Shown here piece by piece: positions 6,346-60,782 of a stretch of 64,000 nt of DNA. Within the stretch, counting starts at the first letter, position 1, and each line of letters begins with the position of its first letter. The DNA is taken from IMG/VR virus record IMGVR_UViG_3300027976_000020, positions 1 to 64,000 of that record, one strand, 5' to 3'. This DNA is from a virus. A model generated the notes under the pieces. The model searched no databases and was not told the origin of the DNA. It saw only the letters and a program-made list of their open reading frames with translations. Made by a program: the position numbers and the translations under genes.

Positions 6346-7344
6346 TTAAGCAACTGATGCTGCAATAGTCGGAGTGCCCCAAGATGCACTTGTCAAGTAA
6401 GTGGCACTCGGTACAAATAACGTAACTACTGTTGCAGGTGCTGTACCAAACGATACGAATGGTGACGCAGAAGCAGTACCACCTGTGATCACGTTGTTAC
6501 CGCCTGGTGCTGGATCGCCGCCTGGGTCAACCCAAGTTGTAGTCAACACCAATTGTGTGCCGCTTCCGGCTGTTTTGGCATTTATGCTAATATACTGTCC
6601 GGCATACGGAGCAGTATCAGCATATTGACGATATACTTGTGTATCGCCGGTTGTAAAATTGAACCATCCTGTGCCAGTGGCCAGTGTATTTGGTGTGCCA
6701 GTGCCGCCAACTTTAGTAGTTCCTGTATAACTTGATGCTGCGATAACTTGTGGATTTAGTGCAGCGCCGCCGGTGATATAAATATCGCCAACCAATGTAG
6801 TAGCCAAGTCATTCCATTCTGCATCACCGTCATTACCGGTTGAAGTTTTGCTTGATTCCCATTTGATGCGTCCACCTGCGTTGAAGAAATAACGTGCAGC
6901 ATTGGCAGTAGCAAATGTTACAGTATGTGTAAATGTGATTGTCCAGGCTGCGTTAGCGGATCCAGTGTTTGTTGTTTTGCTTGCTGCGCCACTAAATGTT
7001 GTAGTTTGGGCACCACTTGCTGCTGCATTACCACGCTTGGCAATAAGACTAGTGATGTCTGTGTTTAGATCTGCTAAAATTGCAACAGTAGTTCCAGTTG
7101 TTGGATTTGCTCTACTTGTGATAGTGGTGCCTTGATGACTTGCCATTGAAGTAATTTTACTATTCAATGTGGCCCACTGTGTTGCTGTGATGGTTGCTGC
7201 GACCGAAACTGTGGTCAGTGCTGTTTCCCCGTATCCTGCTGTGTCTGCACCAGTTGACCAAATTCCGTTTACGTTTGCTCCGTTTGTGCTAACAAACCCA
7301 TTATAGTCTGTTGCCGCGATGATACTACCTGCTGTATATGCCAT
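6346..7344 (-). CDS. Virion structural / fibre-type protein
   Basis: The 332-residue protein is rich in Thr, Ala, Gly and Ser, as expected for a phage fibre or decoration protein. The N-terminus MAYTAGSIIAATDYNGFV, with later GYGETALTTVS and ITATQWATLNSKI blocks, is of a type seen in T4-like marine phages in tail-fibre neighbourhoods. No enzymatic motif, signal peptide or coiled coil is visible. It is the last gene of the leftward structural block, preceded by a GGGATT ribosome site about 10 nt upstream and followed by the terminator at 6305-6324. The exact position in the virion is unknown. Confidence 0.7.
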   Translation of the reverse strand: MAYTAGSIIAATDYNGFVSTNGANVNGIWSTGADTAGYGETALTTVSVAATITATQWATLNSKITSMASHQGTTITSRANPTTGTTVAILADLNTDITSLIAKRGNAAASGAQTTTFSGAASKTTNTGSANAAWTITFTHTVTFATANAARYFFNAGGRIKWESSKTSTGNDGDAEWNDLATTLVGDIYITGGAALNPQVIAASSYTGTTKVGGTGTPNTLATGTGWFNFTTGDTQVYRQYADTAPYAGQYISINAKTAGSGTQLVLTTTWVDPGGDPAPGGNNVITGGTASASPFVSFGTAPATVVTLFVPSATYLTSASWGTPTIAASVA

Positions 7345-7422
7345 TTTGTTTTTAATCCCTTTGTATTAGTTGATCAACATCAACGCGAAAACTTCTCGCT
7401 GGGTGATTTTAATCTTGTAGAA

Positions 7423-8703
7423 TCAATTGATTTTAACAATCGCTTCTACAATGCCTTGTTCTTCTGTTAATTTATCATTTAATGAACGACCAATAACATT
7501 AAACGCTGTTGCTTCTCCGGGCTGGGCAGCTCTTGCCAATCCATTTCCGGCCGAAACAAGTCTATCTCCTTTGCGCACCAACCCCATAGTGTTGACCGGG
7601 ACACGTCCTGTCATTGCAACAGCAGGGTGAGTTGTGTCGGTACCAGCAAGACTGTTCATCAGGTAAGCAGCTCGTGTACTTATGACACCAAACACTTTTT
7701 CGCTTAGTTCATCTGTAACTCGAGTGATTTCGTTGGCACCTCCAAGTTCAACAACAGTACCTGCTTCTAGTTCAGCGTCAGCTGCAAAACGTTCTGCAAC
7801 GTCGGCGTACTGAGCACTAATGTTTGTGCCACTGATACTGCCAGTGGCACCATTGATTGTCATAGCAGTAGTTGGTACACCGCCTTTGTTGACATTGAAT
7901 GTTATGTTGCCGTTGTTAGTTTGATTATACAGTGTTACTGCTGTTCCTGCAACCCCGATTCGGGCATCTTGATTGGAACCAACCGATAAACCGGTATTGT
8001 TCAAAACAGCAAATGTACCTGTTGTTGTTTCCGCAACGTTCTTTAACATAAAGTCGGACGGATCATACCCTTCAAGTGTTTGAGCAACACTTGCTGTACC
8101 CTGGAACAACGGAACTTGCGCACCAACCAGTGTGCTCAGTGTGATACCGGGACGTACTGTTGTGTATCCTGCAATAGTGCTAGCCGGAGTAAATGCAGCA
8201 TCCTTGCTGACAATACCAACAATATTATCTTCAACAAACAATTTAATTACAACGTGTGCTACTGCCACGTTGTCAGTTATAGAATCAGCAATTGCGCCAG
8301 TTGTACCTTGTCCGGATGTAAATGCCGGCCCAACTAGCAAAAATGCACTGCCTGTCCATACTTTAAGCTGTGCATTAACTGTGTCAAACCACAAATCGCC
8401 TGTTACGTTGTTTGTAGGAGCAGTTGCTTGGGCAGTAGTAGACGAAATCGTTTTCCACTGCGCGCCGTTGTAGGCTTTCATCAAACCAAGACTACTGTCC
8501 CACCAAAGTTGACCAGTTAATGGTGCTCCTGGCGCTGTGGGGTTGGACGAATTTTCCAACAGGTGGATACAGTTTTCGTTTAAGAATTCACCGTACCCAG
8601 CGTAGTTTTTACCAACCAGTATCATTGAACTGGAAGTGTTGATTGTACCATCTGCAACTGTAGCAAAGATTGTACCGTCTGTTAAGTTAATTGTATATGC
8701 CAT
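7423..8703 (-). CDS. Tail fibre-type protein with peptidase G2-like C-terminus
   Basis: The 426-residue protein has an N-terminal MAYTINLTDGTIFATVADG block and two short PTAPGAPLTGQLWWDSS-like repeats (second copy APTNNVTGDLWFDTVNAQ) forming a beta-rich shaft. A C-terminal region starts at SAQYADVAERFAADAELE and continues through EKVFGVISTRAAYLMN. Such C-termini resemble the peptidase G2 / intramolecular chaperone module that helps fibres trimerise and may be cleaved off. This is family knowledge, not shown here. A late-promoter-like box and a good GGAG site precede its ATG. Confidence 0.72.
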   Translation of the reverse strand: MAYTINLTDGTIFATVADGTINTSSSMILVGKNYAGYGEFLNENCIHLLENSSNPTAPGAPLTGQLWWDSSLGLMKAYNGAQWKTISSTTAQATAPTNNVTGDLWFDTVNAQLKVWTGSAFLLVGPAFTSGQGTTGAIADSITDNVAVAHVVIKLFVEDNIVGIVSKDAAFTPASTIAGYTTVRPGITLSTLVGAQVPLFQGTASVAQTLEGYDPSDFMLKNVAETTTGTFAVLNNTGLSVGSNQDARIGVAGTAVTLYNQTNNGNITFNVNKGGVPTTAMTINGATGSISGTNISAQYADVAERFAADAELEAGTVVELGGANEITRVTDELSEKVFGVISTRAAYLMNSLAGTDTTHPAVAMTGRVPVNTMGLVRKGDRLVSAGNGLARAAQPGEATAFNVIGRSLNDKLTEEQGIVEAIVKIN

Positions 8704-8725
8704 TTGTAGCTTACTCCGTTAATTT

Positions 8726-8733
8726 TATTTATG
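8726..8733 (-). promoter_or_regulatory. T4-type late promoter box CATAAATA
   Basis: The minus strand reads CATAAATA, one base off the T4 consensus TATAAATA. It ends 22 nt before the ATG of the fibre gene 7423-8703 and is followed by an ACGGAG ribosome site. It overlaps the stop codon of the upstream gene. The distance suits a late transcript with a short leader. Confidence 0.6.
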
Positions 8734-9349
8734 CTGCACTAAGGTTCGTTAAAGTTTGGATACGAATTGTGTAATCAATCTGTATCTGTCTGTTCAAACT
8801 CTTTTGCACTGGGTGAAAGATTACATGGGTAATCAAGCGCAGGTCTGTTGCACTGCCGTTCCATGTTTTGAGCCCTAGCTCGTCAAACACATATTCACCA
8901 TTGAAATTTGTGCTGTTATCAAACGCTTGTTGTCCATTCGGCTCGCCGTAGTCCAACAAACATGTTACTAAAATATCCGTGTATACCTTGCCAGATGTAT
9001 GTAATACTTGCATTTTGTTATTGGCAGTATCAGTGTTGGCAGAAGAATTATCATCTACTACTTTGGAATATGTTTCGTTGTATAAATTAGCATTTTGACC
9101 AACTGTGTTTGGCGGCAAATATGTAATAATACCTGTGGGATCTACACTTGATCCACCGTTGCCAAACGCCATTGAATATATCTGGCCGCCACCTTGAGCA
9201 GATGTTCTGTTGCTGAGTGTTTGAGCCATTGCATACGATATATTTTCGTAATGGATTGCGTTCTTTTTGTCCACTAATACTTCGCCGGTAGCAGGGACAT
9301 GGATTTTAACAAATCCTTCAATTTTGGCTAGGCCTGGCTGAAATATCAT
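8729..9349 (-). CDS. Virion structural protein, tail/baseplate periphery
   Basis: The 206-residue protein begins with KIEGFVKIHVPATGEVLV, then the DKKNAIHYENIS block common at the start of T4-like phage structural proteins, then NGEYVFDELGL and a C-terminal QIDYTIRIQTL beta strand. It sits between the giant structural gene and the fibre genes, so it probably attaches fibres to the baseplate; that is positional inference. Its ATG overlaps the stop of a 45-codon gene whose product resembles its own first 30 residues. Confidence 0.68.
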   Translation of the reverse strand: MIFQPGLAKIEGFVKIHVPATGEVLVDKKNAIHYENISYAMAQTLSNRTSAQGGGQIYSMAFGNGGSSVDPTGIITYLPPNTVGQNANLYNETYSKVVDDNSSANTDTANNKMQVLHTSGKVYTDILVTCLLDYGEPNGQQAFDNSTNFNGEYVFDELGLKTWNGSATDLRLITHVIFHPVQKSLNRQIQIDYTIRIQTLTNLSAA

Positions 9350-44691: not shown

Positions 44692-45266
44692 AATATATGA
44701 TAACAGGCGGCAATAGAGGACTAGGCGAAGCACTGTGTGCTCATTACAATGGTGACAGTTATAGTCGCAACAGTGGTTACGACATTACCAAAGACCGAGA
44801 AAAATTAGTAGAGGCAAGTTTACAATACGATGTGTTTGTTAACAATGCGTTTGACGGACCTTTTCAAGAATCGTGGGCCGACTTTGCACAAGTTAAATTA
44901 TTGTTTGATGTTGCTACAGCATGGAAAAATGCCAACAAAATTGGCCACATCATCAACATTGGTAGCTCTGGAAGTGAATCTATTGTGGCACCGGCCCCTG
45001 CATGGGAAACTTACCGTGTCAGCAAAGCAGCCTTAAAACATCATAGTTTACAATGGACACAAGCGTTCAAAACAAACCAAGCACCGTTTAGAACAAGTCT
45101 AATCACATTGGATCGATTAGACACTGTACTAAGCCGTAGTCGTCCAAACTGGACAGGCAACGGTATTGATTTGTCCGATGTGAGCAATATGATCGACACT
45201 TGCATTAGCGTAAAAAACAACACCTGCATAGGCGAAATTACTGCCTGGGTAAACTTTGACGCATAA
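44688..45266 (+). CDS. Short-chain dehydrogenase/reductase (SDR)
   Basis: The 192-residue protein starts at the ATG overlapping the radical SAM stop, with AGGAGG about 10 nt upstream. TGGNRGLGEAL at the N-terminus is the NAD(P)-binding TGxxxGxG. DVFVNNAF replaces NNAG, IINIGSSGS supplies the catalytic Ser, and YRVSKAALK supplies the YxxxK pair. The chain is short for an SDR (about 250) but retains the catalytic triad. It ends the radical SAM cassette and probably oxidises or reduces an alcohol or ketone on the same substrate. Confidence 0.85.
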   Translation: MKYMITGGNRGLGEALCAHYNGDSYSRNSGYDITKDREKLVEASLQYDVFVNNAFDGPFQESWADFAQVKLLFDVATAWKNANKIGHIINIGSSGSESIVAPAPAWETYRVSKAALKHHSLQWTQAFKTNQAPFRTSLITLDRLDTVLSRSRPNWTGNGIDLSDVSNMIDTCISVKNNTCIGEITAWVNFDA

Positions 45267-45341
45267 TCACTAAAAATATAATACTAATTCATCAACAGGC
45301 ATAACTATACAACATAACAGGCAACTCATCAAATAAAACAC

Positions 45342-45776
45342 ATGACATCATGGTACTATCAAAACATCTCAGTTGAGACATTACCCGAAGAATGTGTTGG
45401 ATTTGTATACTTAATCACAAATAATCTCTCCGGACGCAAGTACATAGGCAAAAAATTAGCAAAGTTCTCAAAAACATCAGTAAAAGTAGTAAAACAAAAG
45501 AACGGCATCAAAAAGAAAAAGCGCATACGCACAAAAATCGACAGTGATTGGCGTGAGTACTACGGATCAAGTATTGATCTAGCCGCAGACATCTTAACTT
45601 TAGGCACCGAAAACTTCTCCAGAGAAATACTTTATTATTGCGCATCCAAGGCAGCATGTTCATACATTGAAGCCAGAGAACAGTTCAATAGAAAAGTATT
45701 GGAATCAGACGATTATTACAATGGACAAATCAGTGTACGTGTACACGGTAGTCACATCAAAAACAAAACACTTTAA
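45342..45776 (+). CDS. GIY-YIG endonuclease, Seg-like
   Basis: The 144-residue protein has GFVYLITNNLSGRKYIGKK, the GIY-YIG strand pair, then a Lys-rich insert, DWREYYGSS with the conserved Arg and Tyr, and an acidic residue further on (IEAREQF) in the place of the metal-binding Glu. Such stand-alone nucleases are common in T4-like phages and spread by homing. No DNA-binding NUMOD element is evident. It ends just before the 415-nt gene-free region, which could be its associated non-coding element. Confidence 0.82.
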   Translation: MTSWYYQNISVETLPEECVGFVYLITNNLSGRKYIGKKLAKFSKTSVKVVKQKNGIKKKKRIRTKIDSDWREYYGSSIDLAADILTLGTENFSREILYYCASKAACSYIEAREQFNRKVLESDDYYNGQISVRVHGSHIKNKTL

Positions 45777-46142
45777 ATTCGATTACGACTCTGTGTTGGG
45801 TGCAATGGCCCAACCCCATTGAAGAACGGTGCAATACCCGGTCCGGACTTGGGTGTCAAAGGACAATGCTAACTTAAGGCAACAAATGGTTTGGGCTATG
45901 TGAAAAAGATACACCCCATGCTTATAGGACTTCGATTTATTATGGGGTCACTAGGGTTCCGTTGATACGTGAAGCTAGAGTAAGGGGTACCGGTCAACCG
46001 CCTCTGTGTAAGCAATTACAATCTCTTGATAATAAAGGCTGCTACACTCAGATAATGCTGTAAAAACCTTTTCACCGTGCATACGGTGAATTGTGACTGC
46101 GTAATCTAGATAATACTAGATACATTGATTGTTCTAACAAAT
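45777..46142. other. Long gene-free island with multiple inverted repeats; candidate structured RNA
   Basis: With the terminators that follow, this is the only stretch over 300 bases without a gene. I find no ORF with coding features on either strand. Helices seen: GTTGGG/CCCAAC (45795-45800 / 45809-45814) interleaved with CAATGG/CCATTG (45803-45808 / 45816-45821), which could form an H-type pseudoknot. ATACCC/GGGTGT pairs 45834-45839 with 45851-45856. ACCCCAT/ATGGGGT pairs 45913-45919 with 45942-45948. TTCACCGT/ACGGTGAA pairs 46071-46078 with 46083-46090 around a GCAT loop. It follows a GIY-YIG gene, but I do not find group I intron core elements. Strand and function are unknown. Confidence 0.5.
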
Positions 46143-46173
46143 AAAAAAAATTGATGAACGAAGTGAAATCAAT
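46143..46173 (-). terminator. Rho-independent terminator of the leftward hub operon
   Basis: On the minus strand ATTGAT (46168-46173) pairs with ATCAAT (46150-46155) across a 12-nt loop, followed by a run of eight T (46143-46150). It lies 19 nt beyond the stop of the nucleoside phosphorylase-like gene. Confidence 0.7.
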
Positions 46174-46191
46174 AGACTTGCTAGCAAGTCT
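46174..46191. terminator. Perfect 18-bp palindrome between convergent operons
   Basis: AGACTTGCTAGCAAGTCT is a perfect palindrome abutting the stop codon at 46192-46194. As RNA it forms an 8-bp stem on either strand. On the plus strand it is followed by TTTAA, so it may stop rightward transcription weakly. A protein-binding site is the alternative. Confidence 0.6.
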
Positions 46192-46728
46192 TTAACGTAT
46201 AGATAACTCTTTTAATTTGTTTATGTAATGCTTTTCACCTAAGGAAACTGTGTGTTTCCAATCTACATTTGCATTGCTGTCGGCTAAATCTGAGATATAT
46301 TTAAAACAAGTAAATTCTATTTTTGAATATTGGCATGCTTTGGCTATAGCATATGCTTCCATGTCAACCAAGTCTGCGGGTATTTCCAATACAGGATTGG
46401 ATACAAAATTATCTCCTGTGCTGCACGTGATACCATCAATGCCTATGGCTATATCTGATTCAAATGGCGTTTGTCCTGCTTTAAGTCCAAACGCTTTACA
46501 ATCCATGTCTCGCTGAACAAAGCGTGTGCACTGATACAATCCTGTGCCCACAGTGATACCACCTGCTGTACCAAAGTTTATAATGTGCTTTGGTTTGTAT
46601 TGTTCAATAAGACGGGCAGTACACAAGGCCGCATTGACCTTGCCTACTCCTGTAAAAAATACATTATCTCGGTGTTGTAACTCCAGCGGTGCTTCGTTGC
46701 TGATAGCAATCAAGATAATGGTATCCAT
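46192..46728 (-). CDS. Nucleoside phosphorylase / MTA-SAH nucleosidase-like enzyme
   Basis: The 178-residue protein starts at the ATG overlapping the upstream stop (TAATG); an earlier ATG at 46746 would lie inside the upstream gene. The PNP/UDP family features are GVGKVNAALCTARLI, IINFGTAGGI (phosphate/ribose loop), VDMEAYAIAKAC (the Met-Glu pair that binds ribose) and CFKYISDLAD with the catalytic Asp. It is shorter than bacterial Pfs/MTAN (about 230). Likely reaction: cleavage of the N-glycosidic bond of a purine nucleoside such as 5'-deoxyadenosine, MTA or SAH. That would suit a genome carrying several radical SAM enzymes. Confidence 0.82.
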   Translation of the reverse strand: MDTIILIAISNEAPLELQHRDNVFFTGVGKVNAALCTARLIEQYKPKHIINFGTAGGITVGTGLYQCTRFVQRDMDCKAFGLKAGQTPFESDIAIGIDGITCSTGDNFVSNPVLEIPADLVDMEAYAIAKACQYSKIEFTCFKYISDLADSNANVDWKHTVSLGEKHYINKLKELSIR

Positions 46729-49108: not shown

Positions 49109-51508
49109 ATGACACCCGAAGAACAAGAACAGCAAGAAACTCTTATCAAGTTAAACAACGCGCAAAGGCAAGCCGTTTACGAAACAGAACAGTTTGGTAA
49201 AGTTACTGATGAAACTGCTGCCAAGTTGTCTCAGTTACAATCTAGTTTAACCAACAATTTCAAAGCCTTGGGCAACAGTGGCATCAGCTTGGCCAAGCAA
49301 TTAAACAACGGTGCTATTGGCGCTTCTGTGTTCAACGATTCAATTGGATCACTAACTGATGTTATAGGAGACTTGGTTGGACTGCTTCCGTATGTTGGTA
49401 CTGCACTTAAAACTATAGTCAAAGGTGCAAGCGAATACACACAAGCAGTAAACAAACAAACAGATGCATTGTTTGAAAGTTATGAACAAATGTCCAAGAT
49501 CGGTGCTGCTGGCGCAGGCGGCATGCAATCTGTTTACGATAACCTAAAAAAACTCAACCTTGGTGTCAATGAGCTGGACAAGTTTGTGGCCATTGTTGGC
49601 GAAAATTCTGACACGTTATATAAATTTGGGCAAACAGTAGGCGGCGGACTTACTGAGTTTGCCAATGTTGCAAACTCGATACAGCAGAGTGATGTAGGCC
49701 GTCGGTTCATGGAAATGGGTATCAGTGTTGATGAAATCAACAACGGTATTGCCAGCTATATGAGAATGCAAACAATTGGCGGAGTACGACAACAAATGTC
49801 TACTGATCAATTAATCAATGCTTCAAAAGACTATATCAGAGAAATTGATTTACTATCCAAAGTCACTGGACAAACTAGAAAACAACAAGAAGAGGCCATG
49901 GAAAGTGCAATGGCCGAAGAACGTTTTGCTGCGTTTAGAACAGAACTACAACTTCGTGCCAATATGGGTGACGAAGCTGCCAAAGCTCAACTGAAAGAAG
50001 TTGATACTTTAACCAAGAGTTTGGCCAAAGAAGCACCAAAGTTAAGAGTAGGAGTGTTGAATCTTTTGTCTGGTACATTGGACAATCCAGAAGCACAAAA
50101 AATAGCAAGAGGAATGCCAACTGCTACTGCGGCATTGCAAAAAGGAGCATTCAAAGCCAACGACATACTCAATGCAATGCAAAAAGATACAAGCAGAACC
50201 ATTGGCAAGTCCGGCGAAGGATTTGGTGTAGCTCTTGGTAAATTGGGAATATTTGGCGAAACATTTGGTGACTTCAACGAAACAGTAAAACTAGCAAACA
50301 TGAATGTGTATGGCACGCTGGAAGAAAGAATGGCAGCAGCCAAAGTTGAGCAACAGGTAACAGATCAAAATACCAAAGATGCCAACCAAACTCGTGTCAA
50401 TAACCGTACAGCACGTCAGAGTCTCAATGATTTGATCAATGCCGGTATAGGACCAGTTACAACTGCAATGAAAGGTCTGTCAACTGCAACAGAAACCACA
50501 ATTACTGCATTTGAAAAAATGGCCAACACAATGGGCATTGAAACTAGGAAACGCGAGTTGGCACCAGCAGCATCTCCACGTCCCGCAGGTCGTGCAGTAC
50601 CTGCAGTTACAAGACCATCAGTAACACCACGCCCGCCGGGCGGAACGTCTACTCAGACAAGTGGGTCTGGCACCTTGTTGCAACAAAAAATTATACAAGC
50701 CGAAAGTGGCGGCAGAAATATACCAAATCAAAGCGGCCCTGGTGGTAAAGCAACAAGTTCTGCATACGGAGTTGCTCAAATAACCAAAGGCACATTTGAA
50801 GATTTGGTAAAGAACGCACAACCAAGCAGCCCGTTGTATGGTAAAACTCATGATGATATGAAAGCTGATGTAGGCTTACAATACGAAGCGTTGAGTGCGT
50901 TAACAGACAAAAATAAATCTATCTTGGCAAAAGCAGGTGTTAGTACAACTGACGCTGCAATGTATTTGGCACACTTCTTAGGTCCATACGGCGCAGTAAA
51001 AGCGCTGAAAGTAGGTGATTCATCAATGCTAAACTCTGCTGTGAATCAAAAGCAGATTGATGCAAACCCTAATTTGCAAAAAATGTCAACTGTTGGAGAT
51101 TTGAAAACTTGGGCTGACCAAAAAATGGGTGGCGGTGGTTATAAGTTTGGCGGCATTGATTCAATGCTAAACTCTGCTGTGAATCAAAAGCAGATTGATG
51201 CAAACCCTAATTTGCAAAAAATGTCAACTGTTGGAGATTTGAAAACTTGGGCTGACCAAAAAATGGGTGGCGGTGGTTATAAGTTTGGCGGCATTGCAAC
51301 TGGGCCAGACTCCGGGTATGAAACTACATTACATGGCACAGAAGCAGTGGTACCGTTGCCAAATGGCAATAGCATACCGGTTGAAATGCAAGGCAACAGC
51401 GAACAAATGGGATTGATGTCGGCGCAACTGTCAAGACTAGACGATATTGTGCGTGTGATGCAAAACCAGCTGGGCGTGTCGCAGAAACTTTTACAGTACG
51501 CACAGTAA
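49109..51508 (+). CDS. Tail tape-measure protein with lytic transglycosylase-like domain
   Basis: The 799-residue protein has a helical, Gln/Lys/Ala-rich N-terminal two thirds, with a hydrophobic segment (IGDLVGLLPYVGTALKTIV, near 85-105) as in tape measures that line the tube. From about residue 522, KIIQAESGGRN ... SAYGVAQITKGTFEDL is the catalytic Glu and SxYGxxQI signature of SLT/lysozyme-fold muramidases. The end has ETTLHGTEAVVPLPNG, common at tape-measure C-termini. The location beside hub gp26/gp51 parallels the T4 hub cluster with gp29. A 46-residue unit is tandemly duplicated downstream of the enzymatic domain. Confidence 0.85.
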   Translation: MTPEEQEQQETLIKLNNAQRQAVYETEQFGKVTDETAAKLSQLQSSLTNNFKALGNSGISLAKQLNNGAIGASVFNDSIGSLTDVIGDLVGLLPYVGTALKTIVKGASEYTQAVNKQTDALFESYEQMSKIGAAGAGGMQSVYDNLKKLNLGVNELDKFVAIVGENSDTLYKFGQTVGGGLTEFANVANSIQQSDVGRRFMEMGISVDEINNGIASYMRMQTIGGVRQQMSTDQLINASKDYIREIDLLSKVTGQTRKQQEEAMESAMAEERFAAFRTELQLRANMGDEAAKAQLKEVDTLTKSLAKEAPKLRVGVLNLLSGTLDNPEAQKIARGMPTATAALQKGAFKANDILNAMQKDTSRTIGKSGEGFGVALGKLGIFGETFGDFNETVKLANMNVYGTLEERMAAAKVEQQVTDQNTKDANQTRVNNRTARQSLNDLINAGIGPVTTAMKGLSTATETTITAFEKMANTMGIETRKRELAPAASPRPAGRAVPAVTRPSVTPRPPGGTSTQTSGSGTLLQQKIIQAESGGRNIPNQSGPGGKATSSAYGVAQITKGTFEDLVKNAQPSSPLYGKTHDDMKADVGLQYEALSALTDKNKSILAKAGVSTTDAAMYLAHFLGPYGAVKALKVGDSSMLNSAVNQKQIDANPNLQKMSTVGDLKTWADQKMGGGGYKFGGIDSMLNSAVNQKQIDANPNLQKMSTVGDLKTWADQKMGGGGYKFGGIATGPDSGYETTLHGTEAVVPLPNGNSIPVEMQGNSEQMGLMSAQLSRLDDIVRVMQNQLGVSQKLLQYAQ
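51023..51296 (+). repeat. 138-bp tandem duplication in tape-measure gene
   Basis: Positions 51023-51158 and 51161-51296 are identical (136 of 138 bases per period). The unit encodes SMLNSAVNQKQIDANPNLQK and the following residues to GGYKFGG, 46 residues per period, keeping frame. Synonymous positions are unchanged, so the event is recent or an assembly effect. Confidence 0.97.
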
Positions 51509-59878: not shown

Positions 59879-59908
59879 AAAATACTATTGTGGCTAAATA
59901 CTTGTCAA
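59879..59908 (-). promoter_or_regulatory. Possible sigma70-like promoter for TPR-glycosyltransferase
   Basis: The minus strand has a perfect TTGACA (59903-59908), an 18-nt spacer and TATTTT (59879-59884, 4/6). A plus-strand GCTAAATA (59893-59900) overlaps it, 87 nt before the next rightward gene. The -10 is weak. Confidence 0.38.
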
Positions 59909-59987
59909 CACAATACGGTGTTTTATGCGGCACACCAGCCGCGTAGTAGCTAGAACCTACATCGGACTTCTTTAAGGAGAAAACAAC

Positions 59988-60782
59988 ATGGGACGTCCTC
60001 TAAAAATTCAAAAATACAACGTAGTCACATCAACACCAATTGATCAAGGCTATGCTCCATTTGGTGCTCCCACTTCAATGGACACAAGTACTGTTGTACT
60101 TCCACAACCAATTACACTACCGTTTCCATTCAGTGGAGTAGTCGGCGGCATTGACAGTGCAGGCGTCAGCGCTACATATCCTATTGTTTCTGTAACAGTG
60201 AATATTGTAAACAGCTTCTCTGGTGCAGCCGCAGGCGCAATTATTCGTCAGAAAGGTGCTCGTAAGTATCTAGTGGCAACCACAACTCCTATTGATCCTG
60301 CAAACGCAGTAGTGGGTGTTGCTCTTCAAATTGCAGCGGTTGGCAACACAGACTGGCAAGCAATGGGCGCGCCATACGGTGCTGCAATTGGTACACTGTT
60401 TACCCCAACAGTGGCCTCTGCAGGTGGTTCAACTGGTACAGCATTCGAAGTTGGTCAGTGCGTGTTGGCAGCCGCTGCGATTCCAACTGCTGGCAATATG
60501 AACATTGCTATGGCAGTTGCTGACGACAGTACCAACGTTTTCATCAGCAAGTTGACCAACAAGTTTGTGCAAGACTTCAACGGTGGCGGCGCCGGCGGTG
60601 TTGCTAGTACTGGCGATGTATGGGATTACGCTGCTACAGTTGACAACATTGACTACGCAGCCAACTTCTTCACTGATTCGTCAACATTTGCCAAGTCAGG
60701 CGCAGAAGTTTCTACATGGGCCGGAACCCAGCAAAACAGCAATGGCACATTGGGCCTAGCACAAGTTGACAGTACAACCTAA
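59988..60782 (+). CDS. Virion structural protein
   Basis: The 264-residue protein begins MGRPLKIQKYNVVTSTPID, a start block I associate with structural proteins of T4-like marine phages. It is rich in Ala, Gly, Thr and Val, with beta-type repeats (GVVGGIDSAGVSATYPIVSV, GARKYLVATTTPIDPANAVV). Strong AAGGAGAA site 6-7 nt before the ATG. It is followed at once by a terminator-like hairpin, so it may be expressed as a single, abundant gene. Capsid decoration or fibre is likely; not proven. Confidence 0.7.
   Translation: MGRPLKIQKYNVVTSTPIDQGYAPFGAPTSMDTSTVVLPQPITLPFPFSGVVGGIDSAGVSATYPIVSVTVNIVNSFSGAAAGAIIRQKGARKYLVATTTPIDPANAVVGVALQIAAVGNTDWQAMGAPYGAAIGTLFTPTVASAGGSTGTAFEVGQCVLAAAAIPTAGNMNIAMAVADDSTNVFISKLTNKFVQDFNGGGAGGVASTGDVWDYAATVDNIDYAANFFTDSSTFAKSGAEVSTWAGTQQNSNGTLGLAQVDSTT

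Follow-up and report, generated by a model that had tools for sequence, protein, structure and literature searches.

Ornate RNAs such as GOLLD, ROOL and OLE are large, highly structured orphan RNAs, and GOLLD is known from phages. A 2010 publication described the Polynucleobacter-1 RNA (Rfam RF01718) as a motif of Burkholderiales and of fresh water or estuaries, possibly with a cis-regulatory role (PMC2864571), and no later paper using its name or accession was found in the literature searched. The free-standing GIY-YIG endonucleases of phage T4 lie beside the genes that they target (PMC2988022). In the ncRNA of the DRT2 reverse transcriptase, the sites ACA-1 and ACA-2 are needed for template jumping (PMC11100668).

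The window analyzed here, a stretch of 64,000 nt within a 79.6-kb virus contig, contains a gene-free island that is bordered by the stops of a GIY-YIG gene (at 45776) and of a convergent phosphorylase-type gene (at 46192). Comparison with related sequences indicates that positions 45787 to 46191 are a previously undescribed, structured RNA gene of about 400 nt. It resembles GOLLD, ROOL and OLE in being large, highly structured and an orphan, but differs from them in its size of about 400 nt and its conserved sequences, and has no Rfam match to them. The Polynucleobacter-1 RNA occupies the same slot behind an equivalent GIY-YIG gene, and the relatives bearing it have the 3' core and the repeats in common with the window. 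However, the 5' domain of the window matched RF01718 at no threshold tried, and the Rfam model excludes the downstream core of about 300 nt. The neighboring gene is of the same Pfam family as T4 SegE; endonucleases of this type adjoin their target locus (PMC2988022), and the RNA gene is a candidate target here. All features are summarized in Table 1.

Table 1. Features of the RNA locus, with positions counted from the first nucleotide of the window.
Feature	Position	Strand	Remarks
SegE-like GIY-YIG endonuclease gene	45342–45776	+	directly upstream of the RNA; Pfam PF19835 SegE_GIY-YIG, 106 bits vs a cut-off of 25
Predicted RNA gene, type A	45787–46191	+	about 405 nt; full-length profile match; 15-helix covariation model
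Exchangeable 5' domain, type A	45787–45888	+	RF01718 absent here; type B relatives carry the Polynucleobacter-1 domain instead
Helix P2	45795–45814	+	first pseudoknot arm of the earlier note; 100% paired; all six pairs doubly changed
Core common to types A and B	45889–46191	+	most type B profile matches start at about profile position 104
Helix P7	45928–45949	+	several strand-fixing G-U pairs; 99.3% paired; U-G in 40/46 and 44/46 at two pairs
Near-invariant GGGGUACCGGUCAACCGCCUC hairpin P9	45984–46004	+	invariant in 46/46 type A
Helix P10	46007–46020	+	96% paired; four pairs changed on both sides
Direct repeat copy 1, AGAUAAU	46050–46056	+	near-invariant CUC in front
Hairpin PY, between the repeats	46071–46090	+	8-bp stem of the earlier note; 98.4% paired
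Direct repeat copy 2, AGAUAAU	46108–46114	+	invariant UCU in front
Hairpin P11, GA-flanked small loop	46150–46173	+	91.9% paired; six pairs, each changed on both sides
Terminal hairpin P12	46174–46191	+	adjoins the convergent PNP_UDP_1 gene at its stop codon; short U run only

The island, its relatives and the carrier phages

An earlier note on this DNA had claimed that positions 45777 to 46191 hold no credible ORF, and this was borne out: the ORFs wholly within the island comprise 33 to 43 aa, with mutual overlaps on both strands. The inverted repeats that it described are present as well. Single-sequence folding was weakly better than that of shuffled sequences (z of −1.90 for the plus and −1.76 for the minus strand), so that the inverted repeats alone are marginal evidence. 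In the closest relatives, the island is conserved with approximately 76 to 87% DNA identity over 300 to 450 nt. ARAGORN found no tRNA or tmRNA gene in the island, and Rfam gave no credible family at gathering score or at an E value of 10, including group I intron, GOLLD, ROOL, OLE, tmRNA and RNase P RNA. This agrees with the earlier note, which had suggested the Rfam check after failing to match the island to known RNAs or to group I intron core segments. An apparent tmRNA piece in one related locus (L036) was dismissed as chance, as its 7.8 bits fall far short of the cut-off of 50.

Several hundred related stretches were found on uncultivated IMG/VR contigs. A protein search of IMG/VR with the GIY-YIG gene product yielded 80 loci, most of which resemble the island in the sequence that follows the gene, and a scan with the near-invariant 22-nt core GGTACCGGTCAACCGCCTCTGT, in which the gene was not used, yielded 54 stretches; two variants of this core gave at least 120 stretches each. 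BLASTN of the island and of one RNA carrying the Polynucleobacter-1 domain (type B) against 50,697 named phages returned nothing credible. A 19-nt core motif had three matches in 84,980 bacterial and archaeal genomes, which is about chance level, with no RNA around them. Judged by a baseplate gene, the closest named relatives are Sinorhizobium phage Phosso and Agrobacterium phage Atu_ph07, with an identity of only 31 to 34%. Among the named phages with GIY-YIG or baseplate relatives, including these two, neither the profile nor the covariance model detected the RNA, and as this covariance model held 15 pairs only, distant relatives in named phages could be missed.

The largest RNA-bearing contig measures 347 kb, and five large contigs of 235 to 347 kb (G001, G002, G006, G007 and G008) contain a single copy of the RNA each. 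Four of the five carry 20 to 33 tRNA genes, and three of these (G001, G002 and G008, the records of loci L014, L033 and L214) are jumbo phage contigs of 343 to 347 kb whose 27 to 33 tRNA genes cover all 20 amino acids; the fifth, G007 (331 kb), has only 7. The carriers are probably T4-like phages of fresh water and include several of jumbo size, with fresh water taken from the published origin of the Rfam motif (PMC2864571) and general knowledge rather than from sample records.

Three other elements were noticed in these genomes. A second orphan freshwater RNA of the window's contig, Rfam freshwater-2 (RF02980, 69.3 bits), is found at 59906 to 59990 of the plus strand, just upstream of an ATG at 59988. 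In a 799-aa protein of the window (49109 to 51508, plus strand), a stretch starting DSMLNSAVNQKQIDANPNLQK is perfectly duplicated in tandem in the translation, which is either real or an assembly artefact. At locus L093, a gp46-like recombination endonuclease (7327 to 9315) has an apparent intein, with a Hint-like segment ending in ...FYTNGILSHN directly before ATPase sequence.

Modular 5' domain and conserved fold

With regards to the 5' domain, the 213 homologues with enough upstream sequence fall into 144 of type B, recognized by a Polynucleobacter-1 profile, and 69 of type A, the type of the window, with none showing both domains and none showing neither. The RF01718 model of Rfam matched all 20 type B loci tested and none of 12 type A loci. 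Membership calls for a score of at least 37 bits, and the model matched neither the window, at gathering score or at an E value of 10, nor the contig. As judged by these profile comparisons, the type A domain is distinct from Polynucleobacter-1 and undescribed. A third, smaller form of the RNA (L015, L022, L053, L054 and L068) is without the GGUACC hairpin and keeps the terminal hairpins as well as the hairpin between matched repeats, which read ACAUGAA in both copies at all five loci.

The structure model comprises 15 helices with 62 pairs and was evaluated on 46 distinct type A sequences, whose alignment was made without structure. In this model, 94.0% of the cells were paired compared with 80.7% in shuffles, 36 of the 62 pairs contained double changes, and the number of doubly changed cells was 341 vs 92 ± 8.8 in shuffles. 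When the partners were slid as a control, pairing dropped to 36 to 46%. The interpretation as a structured RNA is thus strongly supported by covariation, and the compensatory changes are the opposite of the lacking covariation among homologues that the earlier note had named as a refutation. The G-U pairs in P5, P7 and P9 are kept in nearly all type A sequences; on the opposite strand they would be A-C, which identifies the plus strand as the RNA. In type B, the P9 hairpin has a counterpart of related form (GAGGUACCGG...CCUC), and hairpin PY has a stem of different sequence. The terminal hairpin P12 stays perfect in relatives while its sequence is replaced, with double changes, and is likely the 3' end or a terminator.

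Two of the five helices proposed from the single sequence proved to be conserved among the 46 relatives, namely the 8-bp stem at 46071 to 46090 and the arm at 45795 to 45814 of the presumed H-type pseudoknot (45795 to 45821), whose second arm was not conserved (55.8% pairing). Of the other two proposals, the pair at 45834 to 45856 was weak (78.6%) and conflicts with better-supported pairings, and the 7-bp stem at 45913 to 45948 was not conserved (paired in 63.3% of cells), its arms belonging to 45892–45895/45915–45918 and 45928–45933/45944–45949 instead.

The SegE-like neighbor

Among 205 loci with room, 197 have a SegE-like gene upstream of the RNA on the same strand within 1.7 kb, and eight have no GIY-YIG gene in reach. 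At two of the latter (L083 and L121), the RNA follows a phosphorylase-type (PNP-type) gene, and at two others (L093 and L123), another ORF replaces the GIY-YIG gene before the RNA. At some loci, an unrelated ORF lies between the GIY-YIG gene and the RNA. The longest ORF downstream of the RNA is on the minus strand in 102 cases and on the plus strand in 92, which argues against a leader role. Close GIY-YIG relatives at L051, L065, L072 and L076 have no RNA detected downstream. Upstream of the GIY-YIG gene of the window, a consensus-like sigma-70 promoter (TTGACG-17-TATAAT) is located at 45255 to 45283 of the plus strand; it occurs in the window and one near relative only, and no promoter before the gene is conserved.

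The same-strand position directly downstream of the gene at most loci, together with a final hairpin adjoining a convergent gene, would suit a cis-acting 3' UTR or terminator that stabilizes or regulates the GIY-YIG mRNA. However, we consider this unlikely, as the RNA persists behind other genes at the four loci named above, unrelated ORFs intervene elsewhere, and its size and conservation are far beyond the need of a terminator. An RNA that is kept without the GIY-YIG gene is independent of its transcript and not simply its 3' UTR. The earlier note had offered a structured RNA or a homing-related element as ideas, of which the former is strongly supported by covariation and the latter lacks support for the RNA itself, given its retention without the GIY-YIG gene and the lack of a group I or other credible Rfam match at an E value of 10. 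The GIY-YIG gene may nevertheless encode a free-standing homing endonuclease that takes the neighboring RNA with it when it homes, and such co-conversion would explain the tight linkage between the two.

Our preferred reading, with a probability of roughly 0.6, is that T4-like freshwater phages encode a structured RNA which stands alone and acts in trans. This RNA would be transcribed together with or just after the GIY-YIG gene and would accumulate at about 400 nt during infection. The lack of a conserved promoter before the GIY-YIG gene counts against this reading.

Matched direct repeats and their possible role

The two copies of the 7-nt direct repeat, spaced by 47 to 64 nt across hairpin PY, match exactly in 156 of 157 distinct relatives (including L029, read by eye from the alignment), and the word takes 13 forms (AGAUAAU, GGAUAAU, GGAUGAA, AGAUGAA, GGAUGAU, AGAUGAU, AGAUGAG, GCAUAAU and rarer ones). 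In the sole exception, L207, the copies differ at the last position. The flanks are constant, with CUC before copy 1 in 154 of 156 sequences (CUA in two) and UCU before copy 2 in 156 of 156. In the core alignment, the three strongest couplings are those between equivalent positions of the two copies. At the three positions that vary often, 1, 5 and 7, nothing else in the core or in the GIY-YIG protein followed the changes: MI/H peaked at 0.43, for positions 5 and 7 of the word itself, and was otherwise about 0.3 or less; higher values for short 5'-module subsets and for position 2, which varies rarely, have few sequences behind them.

On a tree calculated without the repeat columns, positions 1, 5 and 7 changed approximately 32, 17 and 25 times in copy 1 vs 32, 17 and 24 times in copy 2, counts that are upper limits because they are inflated by mosaic exchange or recombination between phages. 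Independent pairs on this tree agree throughout, bar one at position 7, and the stretch that separates the copies shows hardly any co-inheritance with them. Outside this sample, a scan with a different core variant gave identical copies in 84 of 85 new cores (83 by script, L411 by eye), the exception being L424 with AACAAAU/AACAAAA; this set is poorer in variants (four main words), and chance agreement would be about one third.

The two words are not complementary to each other. The reverse complement of the word was not enriched in the RNA, in 640 nt upstream or in 970 nt downstream, with a weak downstream excess for positions 2 to 7 (z of 3.5) among many tests. No third partner was found among the alignment columns, and pairing between the flanks of copy 1 and those of copy 2 showed no excess over shuffled sequences. 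At orthologous places of the five large contigs and the window, the search yielded nothing beyond the repeats and a single site that is probably a coincidence. As far as the alignments tell, no ordinary RNA pairing explains the matched change of both copies. Translational bypassing as in T4 gene 60, where matched take-off and landing codons lie about 50 nt from each other, came into consideration because the word often reads RGA-URA, but was rejected because no reading frame reaches the word and variants such as ACGAAAU contain no stop.

Copies that match each other but no complement point either to a shared partner varying between phages or to a process in which the strand copied at one site re-anneals at the other. 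We tentatively propose, at somewhat less than even odds, that the function of the RNA needs two distant 7-nt segments that are identical rather than complementary and otherwise drift in sequence, for strand realignment or for dual docking on a fast-changing partner. To our knowledge, an identity-dependent mechanism of this kind is known in no phage RNA. In the least certain steps of our account, the sites flanking PY would act as equivalent docking or realignment sites for one partner, and this partner could be either a factor of host or phage origin that is not the same in all phages, or the element's own complementary strand. If both sites must match the same partner, a change in one would be kept only if the other changes. 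However, docking sites demand a partner that shifts its preference very often and copies that are almost never mismatched.

In its specific form, realignment would mean that one copy serves as template for a nascent complementary strand, which then re-anneals to the other copy, comparable to ACA-1 and ACA-2 of DRT2 or the alignment region of telomerase. This would account for the strict identity without a genomic complement and for the absence of A/G intermediates between the copies, and DRT2 provides a precedent with two matching sites on a structured ncRNA (PMC11100668). The likeness is a resemblance only, with the stretch between the matching repeats as a putative template, and the DRT2 sites comprise 3 nt instead of 7 nt. 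No reverse transcriptase (PF00078) was found in the window's contig or in 17 RNA-bearing contigs of up to 347 kb, records that may be incomplete, and the spacing shows no preference for multiples of three. Realignment by copying is therefore improbable in our view.

Site-specific DNA recombinases use overlap sequences that must match but may vary, usually of 7 bp, and the copies would fit such overlap sites in length, identity and variability. This explanation is very unlikely, however, since neither copy has a conserved arm to its right, both copies and the intervening hairpin are kept in every intact relative examined, and the surroundings evolve as RNA helices. Finally, although a homing-type gene adjoins the island, a decayed gene, which the earlier note had considered as a refutation, or a group I intron remnant is hardly credible given the selection on single nucleotides and helices, the lack of an open frame and the lack of an Rfam group I match at an E value of 10.

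For the stand-alone RNA that we favor, the comparison would make an orphan Rfam motif of 141 nt the 5' domain of a large, modular phage RNA. The motif would thereby gain a second, undescribed 5' type, a genetic neighborhood and a defined carrier in T4-like freshwater phages, including several jumbo-sized ones. The unusually clean signal of the repeats poses the question of which molecular event keeps two changing sites of one RNA identical.
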